This document shows positions 2,890 to 61,862 of a stretch of DNA of 64,000 nucleotides, piece after piece (position 1 is the stretch's first letter; the number at the start of each line of letters is the position of its first letter). A model generated the notes under the pieces. The model saw nothing but the letters and a program-made list of their open reading frames with translations, searched no databases and was not told where the DNA came from. A program made the translations under genes and the position numbers. Source of the stretch: Ilex aquifolium (Eukaryota; Streptophyta; Magnoliopsida; Aquifoliales; Aquifoliaceae). Location: positions 47,038,142-47,102,141 of the forward strand of contig OX637394.1 in assembly GCA_951799425.1 (NCBI GenBank). Direction: 5' to 3'.

Positions 2890-3079
2890 TATTAGGGTGT
2901 AAATATTGTATATTAGAGTTTGTTAGACTTGTACAGGTGTCATTTGTTCATTGGTTGTACATTTGATTAAGTTTTTTCTTCTCTGCTATATATATTAGCA
3001 GCTTTCCCTCTTTTGTATATGTTCGATAAATCAATGAAGATCATTTTCTTCTTCTCTCTTCTTCTTCTCGAGCTTAATA
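2890..3079 (+). repeat. 5' LTR of copia element
   Basis: 190 bp, TATTAGGG...CTTAATA, with inverted TATTA/TAATA tips rather than the usual TG...CA. It contains a TATA-like tatatatatta near 2988. It is identical to the 3' LTR except for G at 2918. Confidence 0.95.
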
Positions 3080-3091
3080 TGGTATCAAAGC
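3080..3091 (+). promoter_or_regulatory. Primer-binding site
   Basis: TGGTATCAAAGC follows the 5' LTR directly. It is complementary to the 3' end of initiator tRNA-Met (plant consensus TGGTATCAGAGC), with one A for G. Confidence 0.9.
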
Positions 3092-3158
3092 AAATTTGAT
3101 CCGCTGCAAATTTGCTTGTTTTCTTCTTCCTTCGTTGATTGTTCTTGTCCTCTTCGAT

Positions 3159-3524
3159 ATGGCGACTCTTTCCTCGATGAGTGATTCCAATTCTGGAGAG
3201 CGTACCAATTCAAATCATTCCGTCATTGAAGAACCTTCGAATCCTTACTATCTTCATCATTCTGATAGCCCTGGGCAAGTGCTCGTCTTGCAGCTGCTCA
3301 CCGGTGAGAATTATACCAATTGGAGTCGTGCGATGTTAATTGCCCTATCTGTGAAGAACAAATTGGGATTTGTTGATGGTTCCATTCCTGAGCCTCAAGG
3401 TACTGATGATAATCTGTTCAACTCCTGGATTCGCAATAATAATATTGTTATATCTTGGATCTTGAATTCGGTTTCAAAGGAAATTTCTGCCAGCATTATT
3501 TTTGCTGCTTCTGCCCGTGAGTAA
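3159..3524 (+). pseudogene. gag: copia gag, N-terminal part
   Basis: Opens at ATG 3159 (MATLSSMSDSNS). It contains the plant copia gag signature LLTGENYTNWSRAMLIAL and a VDGSIPEP stretch, then meets a stop at 3522-3524 just after SASIIFAASARE. In related elements about 50 further residues (the middle of the UBN2-type gag domain) follow here. They are missing and the frame shifts, so the next ORF picks up at SNYRPNCSCGKC. An internal deletion joined the two parts out of frame. The capsid-like protein could not be made from this copy. Confidence 0.9.
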
Positions 3525-5085
3525 TTACCGGCCTAATTGTTCTTGTGGAAAGTGTTCTTGTGGTGGACTTAAAAATCGTAACGATCATCATCAAATGGAG
3601 TACATAATGTCCTTCTTAATGGGACTTGATGATTCTTTCTCTCAAGTTCGTGGTCAGTTGCTTCTCATGGATCCGATGCCTCCTATTAATCGTGTTTTCT
3701 CTCTGATTGTTCAAGAGGAACAACAAAGGAGGACTAATCCTTCCTCTGATTCGAGCAATACTACTGGCACAATGGCCTTTGCTGTTAAAACAGATGTTGT
3801 TAAATCTGGTGGATCTGGTTCTCAAAATTCTCAGAATTCCACTTTCAGTGCTTCCAAGAATCAGAAAAGAGACAGGCCTTATTGCACGCATTGCAAGATT
3901 CTTGGACATACTATGGATCGTTGCTACAAGATCCATGGATATGCTCCTGGATATAAATTCAGATCCAACAACAATTCTAATGCTGCTGCTCATCAAGTTT
4001 CTACTTCTGATGATAGACCAGATCAGTCTAATTCTTTTGGAGGTTTTGTTCAGAATCTGAACTCCAATCAATATCAGCAGCTAATGTCGATGCTTTCTAC
4101 ACATTTGAGTAGCTCAGCAAAGGTCACCAATGATCCTGATCCTTCTCAAACCAACTGCCTCGCAGGTATTTGCTTCTCTGTGTCTTTGAGTCCTCCAATT
4201 TCATCCAATCAGTTCTGGATTGTAGACTCAGGAGCTACTCGACATATTTGTTCACAAGCCAATGCCTTTGTTTCCTTGCATTCTATTCATCACACAACAG
4301 TTACTTTGCCAAATCATTCTCAGATTTTGGTCCATTTTGTTGGTGATGTTAAACTGCATTCTGACCTTGTGCTTAAAGATGTATTGTTTGTCCCTCAATT
4401 CAAATTCAACTTGATCTTAGTCAGTGCTTTAGTTACTGGGTCTGGTCTTATAGTGCGTTTCCTTCCTGACTGCTTTGTTATCCAGGATCTTTCAACCAAG
4501 AGGATGATTGGCAGGGGTGACAAAGTCCAAGATCTCTATGTTCTTAATGTTCAGTGTTTGAATTCTATTTCCAATGCCTTTGTCAATAATGTTTCTGCTC
4601 ATATTTGGCATAATAGCCTAGGACACATTTCTTTTAAGAGACTTGATTCTTTGAAAGATCAGTTGAAATGTGATGTCACTAGATTACATAAGTTGGATCC
4701 TTGTTATATTTGTCCTCTTGCTAAGCAAAGAAGACTGTCCTTTGAGTCTAATAATCATTTGTCCAAATTTCCTTTTGATCTTGTGCACTGTGATATTTGG
4801 GGGCCATATCAATCTGTTTCTTATACTGGTCATCGATTTTTCTTGACTCTTGTTGATGATTGCACTCGTTTTACTTGGGTTTATTTGTTGAGGAATAAAT
4901 CTGATGCTATCTCTGTGGTACCGAAGTTTTTCAACATGGTTTCAACACAGTTTAATGCCAACATCAAGGTGTTTCGATCTGACAATGCAGCTGAGTTATC
5001 TTTTGTTGAGTTTTTCCAAGATAAGGGAGTTTTGCATCAGTTTTCATGTGTTGACAGGCCTCAGCAAAACTCGATTGTGGAGTGA
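3519..5085 (+). pseudogene. pol: copia gag C-terminus, protease and integrase N-part
   Basis: Continuous ORF with, in order: the gag C-terminus; a CCHC zinc knuckle (CTHCKILGHTMDRC, about 3883-3925); the aspartic protease active site DSGAT (from about 4225); the GAG-pre-integrase motif (WHNSLGHISFKRL); and the integrase core (FDLVHCDIWGPYQS, LTLVDDCTRFTWVY, SDNAAE). It ends at TGA 5083-5085 in the conserved stretch PQQNSIVE-stop-KHQH, where relatives have Arg. CGA or AGA to TGA is a one-base change. No RNA-level recoding signal was recognised. Confidence 0.92.
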
Positions 5086-6150
5086 AAACATCAACACCTC
5101 TTGAATGCGGCTCGGTCATTGTTTTTCCAATCCAGGATTCCAGTTTCTTTTTGGACAGATTGTGTTCTTACTGCGGCTTTCTTGATTAACAGAACTCCTT
5201 CTCCACTTTTGAGGCACAACACACCTTTTCATTTGTTATACCAAAAAGCTCCTGATTACACTCTTTTTCGAGTTTTTGGCTGTTTAGCATTTGTTTCCAC
5301 CTTAGCTGCTCATCGAACCAAGTTCCAACCTCGTGCTCGAGTTTGTGCTTTCCTTGGTTATCCGCCTGGTGTGAAAGGTTATAAGTTCTATGATGTGGAG
5401 ACCAAGCAAGTTTTTCTTTCACGAGATGCAGTGTTTCATGAGGAAGTGTTTCCTTTTCATGCTATTACTAGTTTAGATCAAGTTACTGATCCATTTCCGG
5501 ATTTGGTTCTGCCACATCCTTCATTGCAAGCTCATTTTATTTCAGATTTTGCTTCTTCACATGTTCATGCTCCACTTGTTACTTCTGATGTTCCAGCTGA
5601 TCTTCCCATTGATTGTCCTGATACTAATTTCCCAATTGTTTCTTCATCGGGTCCTTCTCCCTCTGGTGTTGTTTCTACTTCAGCAGCTACTATTACAGTA
5701 GATGATATTACAGCAATTGTTCCTTCTACATCAGGTGATGTTGTTCTTCGAAAATCTACCAGAGTGACTCATCAACCTAATTATTTGAAGGATTATCACT
5801 GCAATTTACTTGCTGGCTCTCCTACTCCTGCTTCAACTTCCACATCTTATCCAATCTCTAACTACATCTCTTATCATGGTCTTTCTGATTCACACAAACA
5901 GTTTGTGCTCAGTGTATCATCTCAAGTTGAGCCTCAATACTATCACCAAGCAGTGAAGTTTCCTGAATGGAGATTGGCTATGCATGAAGAGTTGAAATCT
6001 ATGGAAGCAAACAACACCTGGACTGTCACTTCTCTTCCTCATGACAAGCATACCATTGGCTGCAAATGGATTTACAAGATCAAGCTTAAATCGGATGGAT
6101 CCATTGAGCGACATAAGGCTCGTTTGGTAGCTAAAGGCTATACACAATAA
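5086..6150 (+). pseudogene. pol: copia integrase C-terminus and RT N-part
   Basis: Same frame as the preceding ORF, reopening after the TGA. It holds the integrase C-terminal region (FQSRIPVSFWTDCVLTAAFL, RVFGCLAFVS, FLGYPPGVKGYKFYD), a low-complexity Ser/Thr/Pro linker, and the start of reverse transcriptase (WRLAMHEELKSMEANNTW, KHTIGCKWIYKIK, RHKARLVAKGYTQ). It stops at TAA 6148-6150 where the family has a second Gln (CAA to TAA). Confidence 0.92.
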
Positions 6151-7485
6151 GAAGGTTTGGACTTTGTTGAAACTTTTTCTCCAGTGGCAAAATTAGTGAC
6201 TGTGAAGGTTCTTCTTGCACTTGCTGCCTCCCATAATTGGCATCTAGCCCAACTCGATGTCAACAACGCTTTTTTAAATGGCGATCTTTTTGAGGACATC
6301 TATATGGATCTCCCTCTCGGCTATCTTAGACAGGGGGAGTCCTCTCCATCTCAAAGCAAACTAGTATGCAAGCTTCACAAGTCAATTTATGGTCTTAAGC
6401 AAGCTTCGAGACAATGGTATTCAAAATTTTCTCAAGCTTTGCTCAAGTTTGGCTTTCTTCAGTCAAAATCTGATTACTCTCTCTTCACAAAAGGTCATGG
6501 ATCTTCTTTTGTTGCTCTTCTAGTTTATGTGGATGATATCATCCTTACTAGTCCTTCACCTCAAGCTATATATGAGCTCAAACAGTTTCTGCATACACAG
6601 TTTAAGCTCAAGGATCTTGGTTGTCTCAAGTACTTCCTTGGTCTTGAGATTGCTCAGTCCAAGCAAGGTATTGTGCTTTCTCAACGTCATTACACTTTAC
6701 AGTTACTTGAGGACACCGGTTACTTGGCTTGTAAGCCAACTGTTGTTCCAATGGATCCAAAACTTCGTTTAACTGCCACTGAAGGTGAACTACTTCCTGA
6801 TATAACACACTATCGGCGGCTTGTTGGGAAACTTCTTTATCTCACTTTATCTCGCCCAGATATTAGTTCACAAGCTCACTTAATTCTTGGCTCAACCTCG
6901 ACTCAACCTCGACTCCCTCATCTCAAGGCAGTGCATCATCTGCTTCGTTATCTCAAGAAAAGTCCTGGTCAAGGGTTGTTGTTTTCTTCTAATTCTTCCT
7001 TGCAGCTGAGAGCTTTCTCTGATGCTGATTGGGGATCATGCCCTGATTCTCGATGCTCTACTACAGGTTTTTGCATCTTTATTGGTGACTCTTTAGTCTC
7101 TTGGAAGGCCAAAAAGCAGACCACCATCTTTCGATCCTCAGCTGAAGCTGAGTATAGAGCTCTTTCCTCTACTGCCAGTGAGCTTATTTGGTTGCAGCAC
7201 CTTCTTACAGATTTTCAAGTCAAGGTTGATTCTCCTGCATTGCTATATTGTGACAATCAAGCTGCGATACATATTGCCTCTAATCCAACCTTTCATGAAC
7301 GAACTAAGCATATCGAGATAGATTGCCATTTTGTTCGTGAAAGAGTTACTTCGGGAGTTCTCAAATTGCTTCCCATTAGATCTCAATACCAATTGGCTGA
7401 CATGTTTACTAAACCCCTCTCATCTACTCAGCTTTTTTCTTTGCTGTCCAAGATGGCTGTAAAGGACATTTACAAGCCACCTTGA
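6151..7485 (+). pseudogene. pol: copia RT and RNase H
   Basis: Continues in frame after the TAA: EGLDFVETFSPVAKL, QLDVNNAFLNGDL, the polymerase active site YVDDIIL (about 6524), LGLEIAQSKQG, then RNase H (FSDADWGSC, SSAEAEYRALSSTASELIWL, LYCDNQAAIHIA, ERTKHIEIDCHFVRE, LADMFTKPL). It stops at 7483-7485, seven bases before the 3' LTR. This stretch is a good RT/RNase H ORF but is cut off from upstream pol by the stop at 6148. Confidence 0.93.
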
Positions 7486-42947: not shown

Positions 42948-45066
42948 AAGAGGCTAAATATAACCATTTGATCTTTAAAGGAATGTGTAATCTCATCATT
43001 GGTGAAAAATGTAAAGATTTGAGTTTTCCTTGATTTAGGGTTAAAAAAAGATTTTACTTCATTTGATATAGGTATGGGTATAACTTTAGCATTGGAGAAG
43101 ATTTTTAAGAATTTTTTTTATCTTTTTTTAAAAAAGGGTATAAAAAAAGGTAAGGACAGAAGATGCTCTAACATTGAAGAAAGTTTTTAATAGTTTTTAT
43201 TACCATTTTTTAAAAAACAAATTTAAAAAACGGTAATGATTGGAGAAGGTCTGAGCGTAGCACCAAAATTTCACTATTAACAAAAGAAGATTATACAAAA
43301 TTCTTTAACTCAGAGAATAAAATCAAATATAGATGCCCAAAACTGGGGGTTAAAATCCACCCAAGGGGGCCAAAATTCCTCCTAAGTGAGAGCCAAAATT
43401 CCCTAAAATCCAAGGCCAAAAACCCAATAGAAAATCGAGTGGTCTACAATACCATCTATTGAAGTGCTCTTCATGAAATTAAGCATTACCAATACGGATA
43501 GAATATTTGAATTTTTGTATGTGCCATTACAGTGTATGTTTAAGCCTTTCAGAAGAAATATAAGTTGTCGCGATAAAATGATTTATAATGTTTTTCCCAC
43601 TAATCAATAAATTGGGTTTGGCAGAGCTGATGTAGTGGTAGCAATGCGGTGATTATTTGATGTGTTTTGGTGTATGGTGGTTGTATTATTTGAGTAAATA
43701 TTATTATAGTTGAAGTGGTATAGTTTGTTCGATCAAATCGATTAACATTGGTCGAGATGAAGGTATTATGACTTACTAAAAAGTTTTGTATTATTATTCT
43801 TCAAGTTATCAATTTTGCAATGTGTGCGATTTGGATTCGTTGGACGCTACTTATGGAATTGCGAAAGGTCAACTCAAATGACCTGTGACTGATAGAATTG
43901 ACACCAACATAGACACTAACTTCAAAGTGTGATTTTTTTTTTTTTTTTTTTCGATAAGTGAAAGCATGAAATATGTTATGACCTTATAATGTAGCAAATC
44001 GGTTAAGTATGTGCATGACCATAGTTACAAAAATTATTGACAGTTTGTCAGTAAATAATGCCATTACTGATTATAATTCCATGATTAGAGTAGGTTACGA
44101 GATTGGTTTACAAGCAAATTCATTTCCTTTATCCATATAAGATCGATTATGGCAGAACAAATAAATAACATGAGAGAAGATTTTTGTTTGTTTAGCGGGA
44201 TAATGGTAGAAAATGAAAGAAAGAGAAATTTTTTAAATTTTTTATGTGTTTGGTTAGCGTGAAATGAAAAATGGTATAAAAAATAATTTTCTTTCATATT
44301 TAAATTTTCTCACAACTAACAACTTTTTTTTTCTTATAAAAACCACAAAGAAATGCAAGAAAGTTGTGATTTATAATTGACTTCCCATTTTACCCTTATT
44401 TTTTTTAAAATGTTTTATTGGTTATTAATTTTAAAAAAAAATTTGTATGAATTTGGTTAACCATATAATTTGGCCTAGAGACCTTGGTGCTAATGTTTAT
44501 CTAAAAATTAAGTTATGAGCCACTTTTTAAAAAAAATTTAACTTTTAATTATAATAAATGTTTTTTTTCTTATTTAGACCGATTTAATATAATTAAGGGT
44601 AATTTAGACAATTAAAAAAAAATTCTTGTAATTTTCGTTTCTTTTAAACCAAAGAATGAAATTTTTTTAAAATTTTCTCTTAACTTTTTCATGCTAACCA
44701 AATACATACATAAAAATATATTTTTTTACATTATATTTTTTTTCACTTCACTTTCTATTATTTTTATTTTTCATCATTTTTTTTTCCTAACCAAACGGAC
44801 TCAGTGTGATCCGTCATTCATGAGTCAATAATAATGAATCAATTGAAAAAAAAATCAATTATACAACAACATGACCCTAATTAGCCATTTGCTTGAATCA
44901 CTAAAAAAATGGTGGTAGTGGCATTGTCTGCTTAGATAAAAAGATCTTCTTGTCTATACTTGGTACTTGCTTTTTCTTTGTTACTCACACAAAGTTTGTA
45001 TTCCATCTTGTCACCTATAGAGAAAAGAAAATAGTGGTCACAGCCTGTGCCATACCTCGCTTTCTA
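42948..45066 (+). repeat. Segmental duplicate: upstream region of copy D
   Basis: Matches 57165-59315 nearly end to end, and the match continues through exon 1 and into intron 1 (to about 46230 versus 60260). It contains no ORF of note and acts as the 5' region of the dioxygenase copy. Near the end, the ATG used in copies B and F reads ATA at 45031-45033. Confidence 0.85.
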
Positions 45067-45067
45067 G

Positions 45068-45456
45068 CAGGGCCGGCCCAATAGTATTAAAAAAAAACAG
45101 TGGCTTTAGGCCCCATAATTATAGATACATAACTAGTTCACATAAAATATTTAAATTCATGAAAATTTTAGGCCTTATAAAAAGACCCCAAAAAATTTAA
45201 GCCCAATCAAAAAATTATAATTTCAATAATTTGGGCCTACAATTTAATCCATAATATTAGAAACTCAAAAATCAAAAATTTTAAAAAAAAATAAAAAAAA
45301 ATCTGTCTCTCTCTCTTAAAAAACAAAAACAAAGTATCGCATCCTCCTCTCTCACTTCAAAAAAATTAAAAATATTTTTTTTAAAAATAATACTAAAAAT
45401 AAAAAGACATCATTTAATATTACCGCTTTAGGCCTCAATTTAACTTGAGCCACCTG
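45068..45456. mobile_element. hAT-type MITE in the 5' end of copy D
   Basis: CAGGGCCGGCCC at the left and GAGCCACCTG at the right, with a perfect 8-bp duplication ctttctag (45060-45067, 45457-45464). The interior is AT-rich with scattered 'aggccc' words and has no ORF. Copy F lacks the insertion and reads straight through (ctttctaattatgtcag). It separates the ancestral N-terminal codons from the rest of exon 1. Confidence 0.88.
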
Positions 45457-45466
45457 CTTTCTAGTT

Positions 45467-45978
45467 ATGTCAGATTATGCTCGGAAAACTGAATTGAAAA
45501 CTTTTGATGATTCAAAAGCTGGTGTAAAAGGGCTTGTAGATGCCGGGCTGACAAGACTTCCACGTATATTTATCCATGATCACCAAATTAAAAATGATGT
45601 GAAGTTGCATTCTAAAGGAAACTCCCAGAAGTACAATATCCCAATCATAGACTTGAGAGGCATCCATGAAGATGCAGCGCGACGTGATGAAGCCATCAAC
45701 AAAGTCATGGAAGCATGCGAAGATTGGGGCTTTTTCCAGTTAATCAATCATGGCGTTCTGGTGAATGTAATGAATGGAATGATAGATGGAGTTCGAATGT
45801 TTCACGAACAAGACACTGAGGTGAAGAAACAGTTCTATACGCATGATTTAACGAAAAGTTTTATATATGCTAGTAACTTTGATCTGTATCAAGCACCAGC
45901 AGCTAAATGGAAAGATACTATTTACTGTCCTATGGCTCCTCTTCCACCAAATCCAGAAGATTTGCCCGTGGTGTTCAG
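45467..45978 (+). pseudogene. 2OGD copy D, exon 1 (5' end disrupted)
   Basis: Open from the internal ATG 45467 (MSDYARKTELKTFDDSKAG) to a donor TTCAG|GTATGTAAG in phase 2. Motifs: RLPRIFIHDHQ, NIPIIDLRGI, CEDWGFFQLINHGV, FHEQDTEVKKQFYTHD and SNFDLYQAPAAKWKDTIYC. The first ATG of the family is lost (ATA at 45031), and a hAT MITE sits between it and this exon. The second ATG is the one also available in B (7947) and F, so a protein only about 13 residues shorter would be possible. No exon 2 or 3 follows before copy F at 59 kb. Called a pseudogene on structure; the exon itself has no stop or frameshift. Confidence 0.75.
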
Positions 45979-57164: not shown

Positions 57165-59279
57165 CCAAATTTAAAAGAGGGTATATATGATCATTGGATA
57201 TTTAAAGGAGTGTGTAATCTCACAATTGGTGAAAAGAGTAAGGATTTGAATCTCCCTTAATTTGGGTTTAAAAAAGGGTTTCTTTTCATTTAGTATGGAT
57301 ATGGCCGTATGGGTTTAGCATTGAAGAAGGTTTTTAAGAGTTTTTTATATTTTGAAAAAAAAATGTACAAAAAAAGGTAAGGACTGGAGATGCTTTAACA
57401 TTGGAGAAAGTTTTTAAAAGTTTTTTTTATCCTTTTTTTAAAAATGTTTAAAAAAGAGTAAGGATTGGAGATGGCCTAAGCGTAGCACCAAAATTTCACT
57501 ATTAACAAAAGAAGATTACACAAAATTCTCTAATTCAGAGAATAAAACCAAATATAAATGCCCAAAACTTAGGGTTAAAATCCCCCAAGGTGGCCAAAAT
57601 TCCTCCTAAGTGAGAACCAAAACTCCCTAAAATCCAGGGTCAAAAACCCAAGAGAAAATCGAGTGGTCTACAATACCATCTATTGAAGTGCTCTTCATGA
57701 AATTATGCATTATCGATACGGATGGAATATTTGAATTTTTGTATGTGCCATTATGGTGTATGTTTAAGCCTTTCAGAAGTAATATAAGTTATGTACCAAA
57801 AAAAGAAGTAATATAAGTTGTCGCAGCAGCGCGATAAATATGATTTATAATGTTTTTCTCACTAATCAATAAATTGGGTTTGGCAGAGCTGATGTAGTGG
57901 TAGCAATGCGGTGATTATTTGATGTGTTTTGGGGTATGGTGGTTGTATTATTTGAGTAAATATTATTATAGTTGAAGTGGTATAGTTTGTTCAATCAAAT
58001 CGATTAACATTGGCCGAGATGAAGGTATTATGACTTGCTAAAAAGTTATGTATTAATGTTCTTCAAGTTATCAATTTTGCGATGTGTGAGATTTGGATTC
58101 GTGGACGCTATTTATGAAATTGAGAAAGGTCAACTCAAAAGACCAATGACGATAGAATTAACACCAACATAGACACTAACTTGAAAGCGTGAAATATTTT
58201 TTTTTTCGATAAGTGAAAGCGTGACATATGATATGATTTTATAATGTAGCAAATCAGTTAAGTATGTGCATGACCATAGTTACAAAAATTATTGACGGTT
58301 TGTCAGTAAATAATGCCATTACTGATGATAATTCCATGATTAGAGTAGGTTATGAGATTGGTTTACAAGCAAATTCATTTCCTTTATCCATATAAGGTCG
58401 ATTATGGCAGAACAAATAAATAACATGAGAGAAGATTTCCGTTTATTTAGCGGGATAATGGTAGAAAATGCAAGAAAGATAATTTTTTTTTAAATTTTTT
58501 ATGTGTTTGGTTAACATGAAATGAAAAATAGTATAAAAAATAATTTTCTTTCATATTTAAATTTTCTCACAACTAACAATTTTTTTTTCTTATAAAAACC
58601 ACAAAGAAATACAAGAAAGTTGTAATTTATAACTGACTTCTCATTTTACCCTTATTTTTCTTAAAATATTTTATTGGTTATTAATTTTAAAAAATCTTTG
58701 TATGAATTTGATTAACCATATAATTTTGCCTAGAGACCTTGGTGCTAATGTTTATCTCAATTAAGTTATGAGCCACTTTTTAAAAAAAATTTAACTTTTA
58801 ATTATAATAAATATTTTTTTCTTATATAGACCAATTTAATATAATTAAGGGTAATTTAGACAATTAAAAAAAAATTGTAGCTTTCATTTCTTTTAAACCA
58901 GAGAATGAAATTTTTTTAAAATTTTCTCTAAGTTTTTCATGCTAACTAAATACATGCATAAAAATATATTTTTTTGCATTATACTTTCTTTCACTTCACT
59001 TTCTATTATTTTCATTTTCCATCATTTTTTTCTTCCTAACCAAACGGACTCAGTGTGATCCGTCATTCATGAGTCAATAATAATGAATCAATTAAAAAAA
59101 ATCAATTATACAACAACATGACCCTAATTAGCCATTTGCTTGAATCACTAAAAAAATGGTGGTAATATTGCATTGTCTGCTTAGATAAAAAGATCTTCTT
59201 GTCTATTCTTGGTACTTGCTTTTTCTTTGTTACTCACACAAAGTTTGCATTCCATCTTGTCACCTATAGAGAAAAGAAA
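57165..59279 (+). promoter_or_regulatory. 5' region of 2OGD copy F (segmental duplicate)
   Basis: Colinear with 42948-45030 of copy D. Non-coding. The last 130 bp include gataaaaagatcttc (about 59184), a weak TATA-like candidate, then a pyrimidine-rich leader up to the ATG at 59280. No other regulatory motif can be defended. Confidence 0.55.
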
Positions 59280-59630
59280 ATGGTGATCTCAGCCTGCGTC
59301 GTATCTCGCTTTCTAATTATGTCAGATTATGTTTGGAAAACTGAACTAAAAACTTTTGATGATTCAAAAGCCGGTGTAAAAGGGCTTGTAGATGCCGGGC
59401 TGACGAGACTTCCACGTATATTTATCCATGATCACCAAATTAAACATGATGTGAAGTTGCAATCTAAAGGAAACTCCCAGAAGTACAATATTCCAATCAT
59501 AGACTTGAGAGGCATCCATGAAGATGCAGCGCGACGTGATGAAGCCATCAACAAAGTCATGGAAGCTTGCGAAGATTGGGGCTTTTTCCAGTTAATCAAT
59601 CATGGAGTTCCGGTGAATGGAATGATAGAT

Positions 59631-59808
59631 ACCAACGGTGTCTTGGTCTAGTGGTGCCAGGGGCTAGACTTTGGTAGGGAGGACTACGGTTCGATCCCCC
59701 ACAAGCCCGTTGGGAGGAGTTTAAAACCTTAACCCCAGGACCCGCTCCGAAACCGGATTAGTCGGCCCAATGGGTTCGGATACCGGTTGGCTGGACCAAA
59801 AAAAAAAA
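59631..59808 (+). mobile_element. tRNA-derived SINE in exon 1 of copy F
   Basis: 178 bp with an RNA polymerase III A box (TGGTCTAGTGG, 59644-59654) and B box (GGTTCGATCCC, 59688-59698) 33 bp apart, a tRNA-unrelated 3' part and an A11 tail (59798-59808). A perfect 16-bp duplication gaatggaatgatagat flanks it (59615-59630, 59809-59824). The perfect duplication and clean tail point to a recent event; the paralogous exon in copy D lacks it. Confidence 0.97.
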
Positions 59809-60307
59809 GAATGGAATGATAGATGGAGTTCGAATGTTTCACGAGCAAGACACTGAGGTGAAGAAACAGTTCTATACGCGTGATTTAACGAAAAGTTTTA
59901 TATATACTAGTAACTTTGATCTGTATCAAGCACCAGGAGCTAAATGGAAAGATACTATTTACTGTCCTATGGCTCCTCTTCCACCAAATCCAGAAGATTT
60001 GCCCGTGGTGTTCAGGTATGTAAGTAGTCTAGTACACAAGATTCCCATTTTTTTGGGCCTTGGGGAGAGTCAATAGATTATGTTTGTTGTGCTACAGCTT
60101 GTTTAATTGGGATAACACACCTTAATTCATGAATTTGATAACACGCTTCAACATTCAACTTCTTTTAACAAGGGCAAGGTAGGTGTATCTGTAATTATGA
60201 TGATGGATTACCTTTAATTATAGGTCTACTAGTTCTAGTTCTTTTCATCCCAACATTGTCCTATTTTTGTATGCCCTATGAAGTCCTGTATTCTGGGGGC
60301 AAGAGTC

Positions 60308-60476: not shown

Positions 60477-60798
60477 AAAGATAATGTTTGAGTACTCCAA
60501 CTACCTCTTGAGTTTGGGTCTCACTCTGTTTGAATTACTCTCGGAGGCTCTCGGACTCGATCCCAATTACCTGAAAAACTTCGGTTGTGCCGAGGGTCTC
60601 TTCCTCGTAGGCCATTACTACCCAAAATGCCCTGAACCAGAATTGACTCTTGGTGCTACCAACCACACAGACAGTGGATTTCTTACTATTGTTCTCCAAG
60701 ACCTAGTGGGTGGCATTCAAGTCTTGCATGAGAATCAATGGGTGGCTGTGCCCCCCTTGCCCGGAGCTCTAGTAGTTAACGCTGGTGATTTCCTACAG
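60477..60798 (+). CDS. 2OGD copy F, exon 2 (HxD exon)
   Basis: The only exon 2 in the window. It begins after a TTGCAG acceptor, completing the Arg codon split with exon 1 ([19 protein letters not shown]). It contains [29 protein letters not shown], then [14 protein letters not shown] with the iron ligands His (60664-60666) and Asp (60670-60672), [16 protein letters not shown] and VVNAGDFLQ. It ends in phase 0 at CAG|GCAAGT, a non-canonical GC donor that otherwise matches the consensus. Reading through runs into a (TA) repeat. Confidence 0.92.
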
Positions 60799-60802
60799 GC
60801 AA

Positions 60803-60852
<50 letters not shown>

Positions 60853-61592: not shown

Positions 61593-61862
61593 ATCATCAC
61601 GAATGATAGAGTTAAAAGCGTGAATCACAAGGTACTGGTGAAAGATGTAGGCCCAAGAACTTCAATGGCGGTGTTTTTCAAAACACATATTAATGAAAAG
61701 ACTACGTCCAGAATGTATGGGCCGATCAAAGAGTTGTTATCTGATGAAAACCCTCCAATCTACAGGGAGGTCACCATTAAAGAGTATATGACACGTCTCT
61801 ACGAGATAGGACTCGATGGAAAGGGGACCTCTTTACTATCACCTTTTAAACTGCTCCAGTGA
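61593..61862 (+). CDS. 2OGD copy F, exon 3
   Basis: Open 270-bp exon: [54 protein letters not shown], then SPFKLLQ and TGA. It has the distal iron-binding His (61626-61628) and RxS (RTS). It is close to the gene A exon, with no lesion. The acceptor is ttttttcAG. Confidence 0.93.

Follow-up and report, generated by a model that had tools for sequence, protein, structure and literature searches.

A young SINE insertion in exon 1 of a duplicated dioxygenase gene of holly

In holly (Ilex aquifolium), one copy of a 2-oxoglutarate/Fe(II) dioxygenase gene, here called copy F, carries a 178-bp SINE inside its first exon, and it is very probable that a LINE-aided insertion of this young element broke what is one redundant member of a duplicated gene family. 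Copy F lies in the window, the 64,000-nucleotide stretch of DNA that was analysed, on chromosome 4 (C4:47038142-47102141). In the sequence of events that we propose, pol III would use the A and B boxes inside the element to make a tRNA-like SINE RNA, a LINE reverse transcriptase would copy this RNA into exon 1 by target-primed reverse transcription, and this retroposition would leave behind a 16-bp flanking duplication (TSD) and a tail of eleven A residues (A11). The element would belong to a small and very recent burst in the genome, while its host would be redundant, since chromosome 11 holds an intact gene of which it is a duplicate, and may already have been decaying. Such a locus would provide a clean, datable example of the death of a duplicated plant enzyme gene, and the insertions of a SINE family as young as this one could act as presence/absence markers in holly.

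The features of copy F, of the insertion and of the neighboring copy E are as follows.

59280..60015, + strand: exon 1 of copy F with the SINE inside; ATG at 59280, DIOX_N (PF14226) before the SINE
59614..59630, + strand: site of a 9-bp loss in copy F, from alignment with 15 paralogues
59615..59630, + strand: 5' copy of the TSD, 16 bp, a sequence repeat
59631..59808, + strand: SINE, 178 bp, with genome-wide copies and one change from the subfamily-A master
59644..59654, + strand: putative pol III A box TGGTCTAGTGG, by general consensus
59649..59651, + strand: in-frame TAG within the SINE, codon 124 of the broken frame read from the ATG at 59280
59688..59698, + strand: putative pol III B box GGTTCGATCCC, by general consensus
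59798..59808, + strand: A11 tail, from the sequence
59809..59824, + strand: 3' copy of the TSD, 16 bp, a sequence repeat
60477..60798, + strand: exon 2 of copy F with HxD; PF03171; followed by the GC donor CAG/GCAAGT
61593..61862, + strand: exon 3 of copy F, which ends in TGA and contains the distal H and RxS; PF03171 just under the cut-off
45456..45978, + strand: copy E, consisting of exon 1 alone, with about 96-98% identity to copy F; SINE site empty

The two copies of the TSD (GAATGGAATGATAGAT) are identical at 16/16 positions with a spacing of 194, and the 178 bp between them include the A11 tail. The A and B boxes, called by their general consensus, are separated by 33-34 nt, a spacing of the SINE type. 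A 178-bp unit with A and B boxes, an A11 tail and a perfect 16-bp duplication in exon 1 is what the original prediction had described, and every one of these elements is exact. The unit matches no RNA family in Rfam up to an E value of 10 and ARAGORN detects no tRNA in it, and the tRNA origin of the SINE hence rests on the boxes, from which the element appears to be tRNA-like and transcribed by pol III.

The insertion adds 194 bp to exon 1 of copy F, a length not divisible by 3, and the frame therefore resumes in another register, while reading from the ATG meets a TAG at codon 124; both the gain of 194 bp and an immediate TAG had been anticipated. The TSD, the TAG and the near-identical copies elsewhere in the genome likewise agree with the proposal that a young SINE destroyed the reading frame. 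With the frame broken in this way, copy F would yield the N-terminal third of the enzyme at most and has presumably lost its function, and a message that bears a stop and has introns downstream of it is expected to be degraded. Among the pieces of copy F, Pfam recognizes PF14226 before the SINE and PF03171 in exon 2, with exon 3 slightly below the cut-off, and gives no match for the piece after the SINE. Exon 1 ends at the donor CAG/GTATGT at 60016, and the exon pieces are otherwise free of stops and frameshifts. The assertion that everything else in the gene is sound holds for the three exons, HxD, the distal H and RxS, all of which are present, but not for three codons that are missing or for a replacement:silent ratio on the copy F branch that is neutral (see below). 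The GC donor of intron 2 (60799-60804 in copy F) is common to copy F and the loci L031, L032, L033 and L034.

The SINE site is empty in 15/15 paralogues that cover it (2 in the window and 13/14 fetched loci), a sixteenth (L042), which ends short of the site, being excluded from the count. The same alignment reveals a second lesion, missed by the original prediction, in that three codons (9 bp) are missing from copy F where the SINE inserted, a segment that is present in 15/15 of the compared paralogues, including L033, where it is accompanied by one base fewer nearby. Two GAATG repeats flank the 9 bp, so slippage before the insertion, or a deletion with it or after it, are all possible. The 1-bp deletion of L033 (L033:1520-1530) lies only a few bases from the place where copy F carries the SINE, which makes this a repeat-rich spot hit in two copies. 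Copy E has an AT-rich insertion of 388 bp near its start (45068-45455), which lies between 9-bp direct repeats (GCTTTCTAG; 45059-45464 with the repeats); this insertion begins with CAGGGCCGGCCC, as in some DNA transposons, and its opposite end is not mirrored.

The SINE is not confined to copy F. A genome search for the 178-bp unit, put forward at the outset as a check, finds that it recurs, with at least 97% identity in the 40 scored matches (copy F's own included) among 215 first-look candidates, and because the unit recurs and the sampled copies have TSDs of their own, the insertion is not a chance resemblance. A head pattern of 64 nt (three mismatches or fewer) gives 66 genome matches, 51 of them exact, 11 with one mismatch, none with two and 4 with three, the differences in these last four being mainly at the 5' edge. 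The corresponding tail pattern (45 nt, three mismatches or fewer) gives 82 matches (17 exact, 9 with one mismatch, 50 with two and 6 with three), and 49/50 of the two-mismatch tails represent one identical second master that differs at two positions, such that 66/82 tails are identical to one of two masters. Reversed-pattern controls for head and tail give 0 genome matches. A third tail variant is seen in L047, L063 and L064, where the A tail is preceded by GATACC or GGAACC at the end of the unit. The copies are dispersed over many chromosomes and form a small, uniform and very recent burst; these counts apply within the limit of three mismatches, and older, more divergent relatives may exist. 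A non-exhaustive literature search on Ilex and SINEs found no description of this family, and words from the tail sequence retrieved no SINE paper by title.

An exact TSD of 11-18 nt flanks 28/30 sampled copies (in 8 of which 1-3 nt at the 5' junction do not match), the two without a TSD being L020 and L023, and A tails also occur in the other copies inspected. Among 20 further loci, 18 picked for a tail without a head match plus two variants, 18/20 have an alignment that starts no earlier than unit position 17-103 while the A tail is retained, and at many of them a TSD can be seen. TSDs, A tails and 5'-truncated copies are marks of LINE-driven retroposition, and the SINE would hence have been mobilized by a partner LINE. 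Copy F is not the only host with a broken reading frame, since 2/30 sampled copies interrupt recognizable coding sequence, which is a lower bound because only open frames abutting the insertion were considered. The SINE at L008 (G000:C1:31493508-31493683; unit L008:1501-1676) is identical to the subfamily master, has the TSD AATTGTTTACCAAGTTC and is flanked by open frames with matches to F-box (1.9e-7) and LRR_At5g56370 (2.1e-12), and it looks as if it interrupts an F-box/LRR gene. Long open flanks also occur at the sampled copies L017, L018 and L027, those of L017 being without a Pfam match.

That the insertion is recent, as first proposed, is borne out by the perfect TSD, the near-identical family and a single change from the subfamily-A master in 167 bases, a CpG turned into CpA (G to A) at unit position 71. 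One change cannot date the copy in F. For the family, heads have 11 changes from the master in 62 x 64 (3,968) bases and tails 13 in 82 x 45 (3,690) bases, with four intermediate tails taken as their own type, so that copies are about 0.3% from their masters, a value biased low by the three-mismatch limit. Plant substitution rates are 1-7 x 10^-9 per site and year, and at these rates the age of the family would be roughly 0.4-3 million years.

Within the window, copy F is the sole dioxygenase copy with all three exons, as had been claimed, but this is not true of the genome, in which chromosome 11 (C11:26.506-26.509 Mb) carries L031, a 380-aa duplicate with its three exons intact. L031 matches PF14226 (4.2e-20) and PF03171 (5.9e-32) and is 98% identical to copy F in exon 2, 97% in exon 3, 98% in the part of exon 1 that follows the SINE, and 95% over 59000-59630. 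One part of intron 1 has only 81% identity between the two, and intron 1 of L031 contains about 770 bp (about L031:3066-3833) that are absent from copy F. Further three-exon copies are L032, which is open from ATG to stop except for 15 nt that the codon comparison does not cover, and L035, L037 and L041, with three open exon segments each (starts not assembled). At its left edge the window cuts through a further copy, L033 (C4), whose exon 3 is at 1673-1942 of the window with exons 1 and 2 just outside, and whose exon 1 carries the 1-bp deletion. Because the near-identical, unbroken L031 remains, the broken copy F does not show that holly has lost the enzyme.

We lean slightly toward the view that the SINE is a passenger lesion in a duplicate that was already non-functional and drifting neutrally, with constraint relaxed before the insertion. 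On branches polarized with one outgroup (L032), leaving out three unpolarized changes and codons 113-117, copy F has 14 replacement and 4 silent changes, a replacement fraction of 0.78 that equals the neutral expectation of 0.78, and L031 has 6 replacement and 7 silent changes. The neutral ratio on the copy F branch speaks for earlier decay, but the replacement:silent contrast between the two branches is not significant (Fisher p = 0.13), and while 14 or more replacements among 18 changes have a probability of 0.006 under an omega of 0.24, this becomes 0.16 under an omega of 0.5, such that 14:4 is not extreme at the family-wide omega of about 0.5. The silent divergence of 0.05 between copy F and L031 is several times the depth of the SINE family (about 0.3%), which suggests that most of the changes in copy F are older than the SINE and so fits prior decay. 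The 9-bp loss would fit it as well if older than the SINE, but it may date from the insertion or later. The sister copies on C4 are broken too, copy E being limited to exon 1 and carrying an insertion close to its start, and L033 having its 1-bp deletion. Decay of copy F prior to the SINE is thus the likelier reading, although the sequence comparisons leave it suggestive and close to evenly balanced.

The SINE may instead have struck a working gene and be still segregating, its presence or absence marking enzyme activity, as was first suggested. The perfect TSD, the one CpG change in 167 bp, the high uniformity of the family and the exon pieces free of any other stop or frameshift speak for such an inactivating event, but an intact near-identical duplicate exists, copy F is also short of three codons at the same place and its branch has the 14:4 ratio of replacement to silent changes, and we regard this as unlikely. 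The proposed link between SINE presence and enzyme activity is weakened because there is an intact duplicate. Polymorphism of the insertion in copy F is in itself plausible because the SINE family is young, and a search with the flanks across the 103 contigs of the one-haplotype assembly turned up no further copy of allelic identity with an empty site. A broader proposal, which we hold only tentatively and at somewhat less than an even chance, is that members of the family continue to transpose in hollies today, with new insertions arising from a handful of near-identical masters, that the insertion in copy F is heterozygous or polymorphic and that exons are being broken repeatedly (the dioxygenase and the F-box gene). 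If true, holly would show SINE-driven gene loss under way in a long-lived tree.

It is very improbable that copy F stays functional through splicing that removes the SINE like an additional intron. On paper, 63 GT...AG pairs in the range searched drop the stop and restore the frame, but this number is uninformative because chance gives that many, and the best donors match 7/9 consensus bases and the acceptors are without a T-rich tract, unlike the real sites of the gene. Three codons would still be absent, and no convincing donor/acceptor pair was found. An assembly artefact has a negligible probability, since the unit, TSD and tail are exact with the same pattern as in 28/30 other sampled copies, the assembly is a long-read one according to excerpts of its description (PMC11109700), and nothing was found in favor of an artefact.

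The holly SINE resembles plant SINEs of the tRNA type. According to excerpts of the AnnoSINE report, their boxes are 25-50 nt apart with the 5' TSD at most 40 nt from box A, and the holly SINE is alike in its box spacing, its A tail, a TSD near box A and dispersed copies, with no terminal inverted repeats noted in it either (PMC8825457). Unlike these, the holly family is small (about 80 close copies) and nearly identical, with no tRNA match by Rfam or ARAGORN. A close parallel, compared by description only, is the Au SINE of wheat, which the excerpted account describes as 181 bp long (178 in holly), with pol III boxes, recent activity and insertion polymorphisms in genes (PMC5787218). The same excerpts show that such insertions can be polymorphic within a species and describe their scoring in wheat by full-site/empty-site PCR; the gene-associated insertions of wheat are mostly intronic, whereas the one in holly is in a coding exon (PMC5787218).

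The holly gene shares DIOX_N and 2OG-FeII_Oxy, HxD...H and RxS with plant 2-oxoglutarate/Fe(II) dioxygenases, with copy F broken. Its closest solved relatives are the At5g05600 product (6lsv) and a feruloyl-CoA 6'-hydroxylase-type enzyme (4xae), and we take its subgroup to be that of the ACC-oxidase-homologue type. Tandem dioxygenase clusters are paired at C4:47.00-47.10 Mb and C11:26.40-26.65 Mb on opposite strands, each with broken and open copies. The two are about 90-96% identical in most long aligned stretches, and the pair looks like a duplicated chromosome segment. Between dioxygenase exons of the window, a run of long open frames of 148, 539, 354 and 444 codons (3078-7485, + strand) is probably a mobile element.
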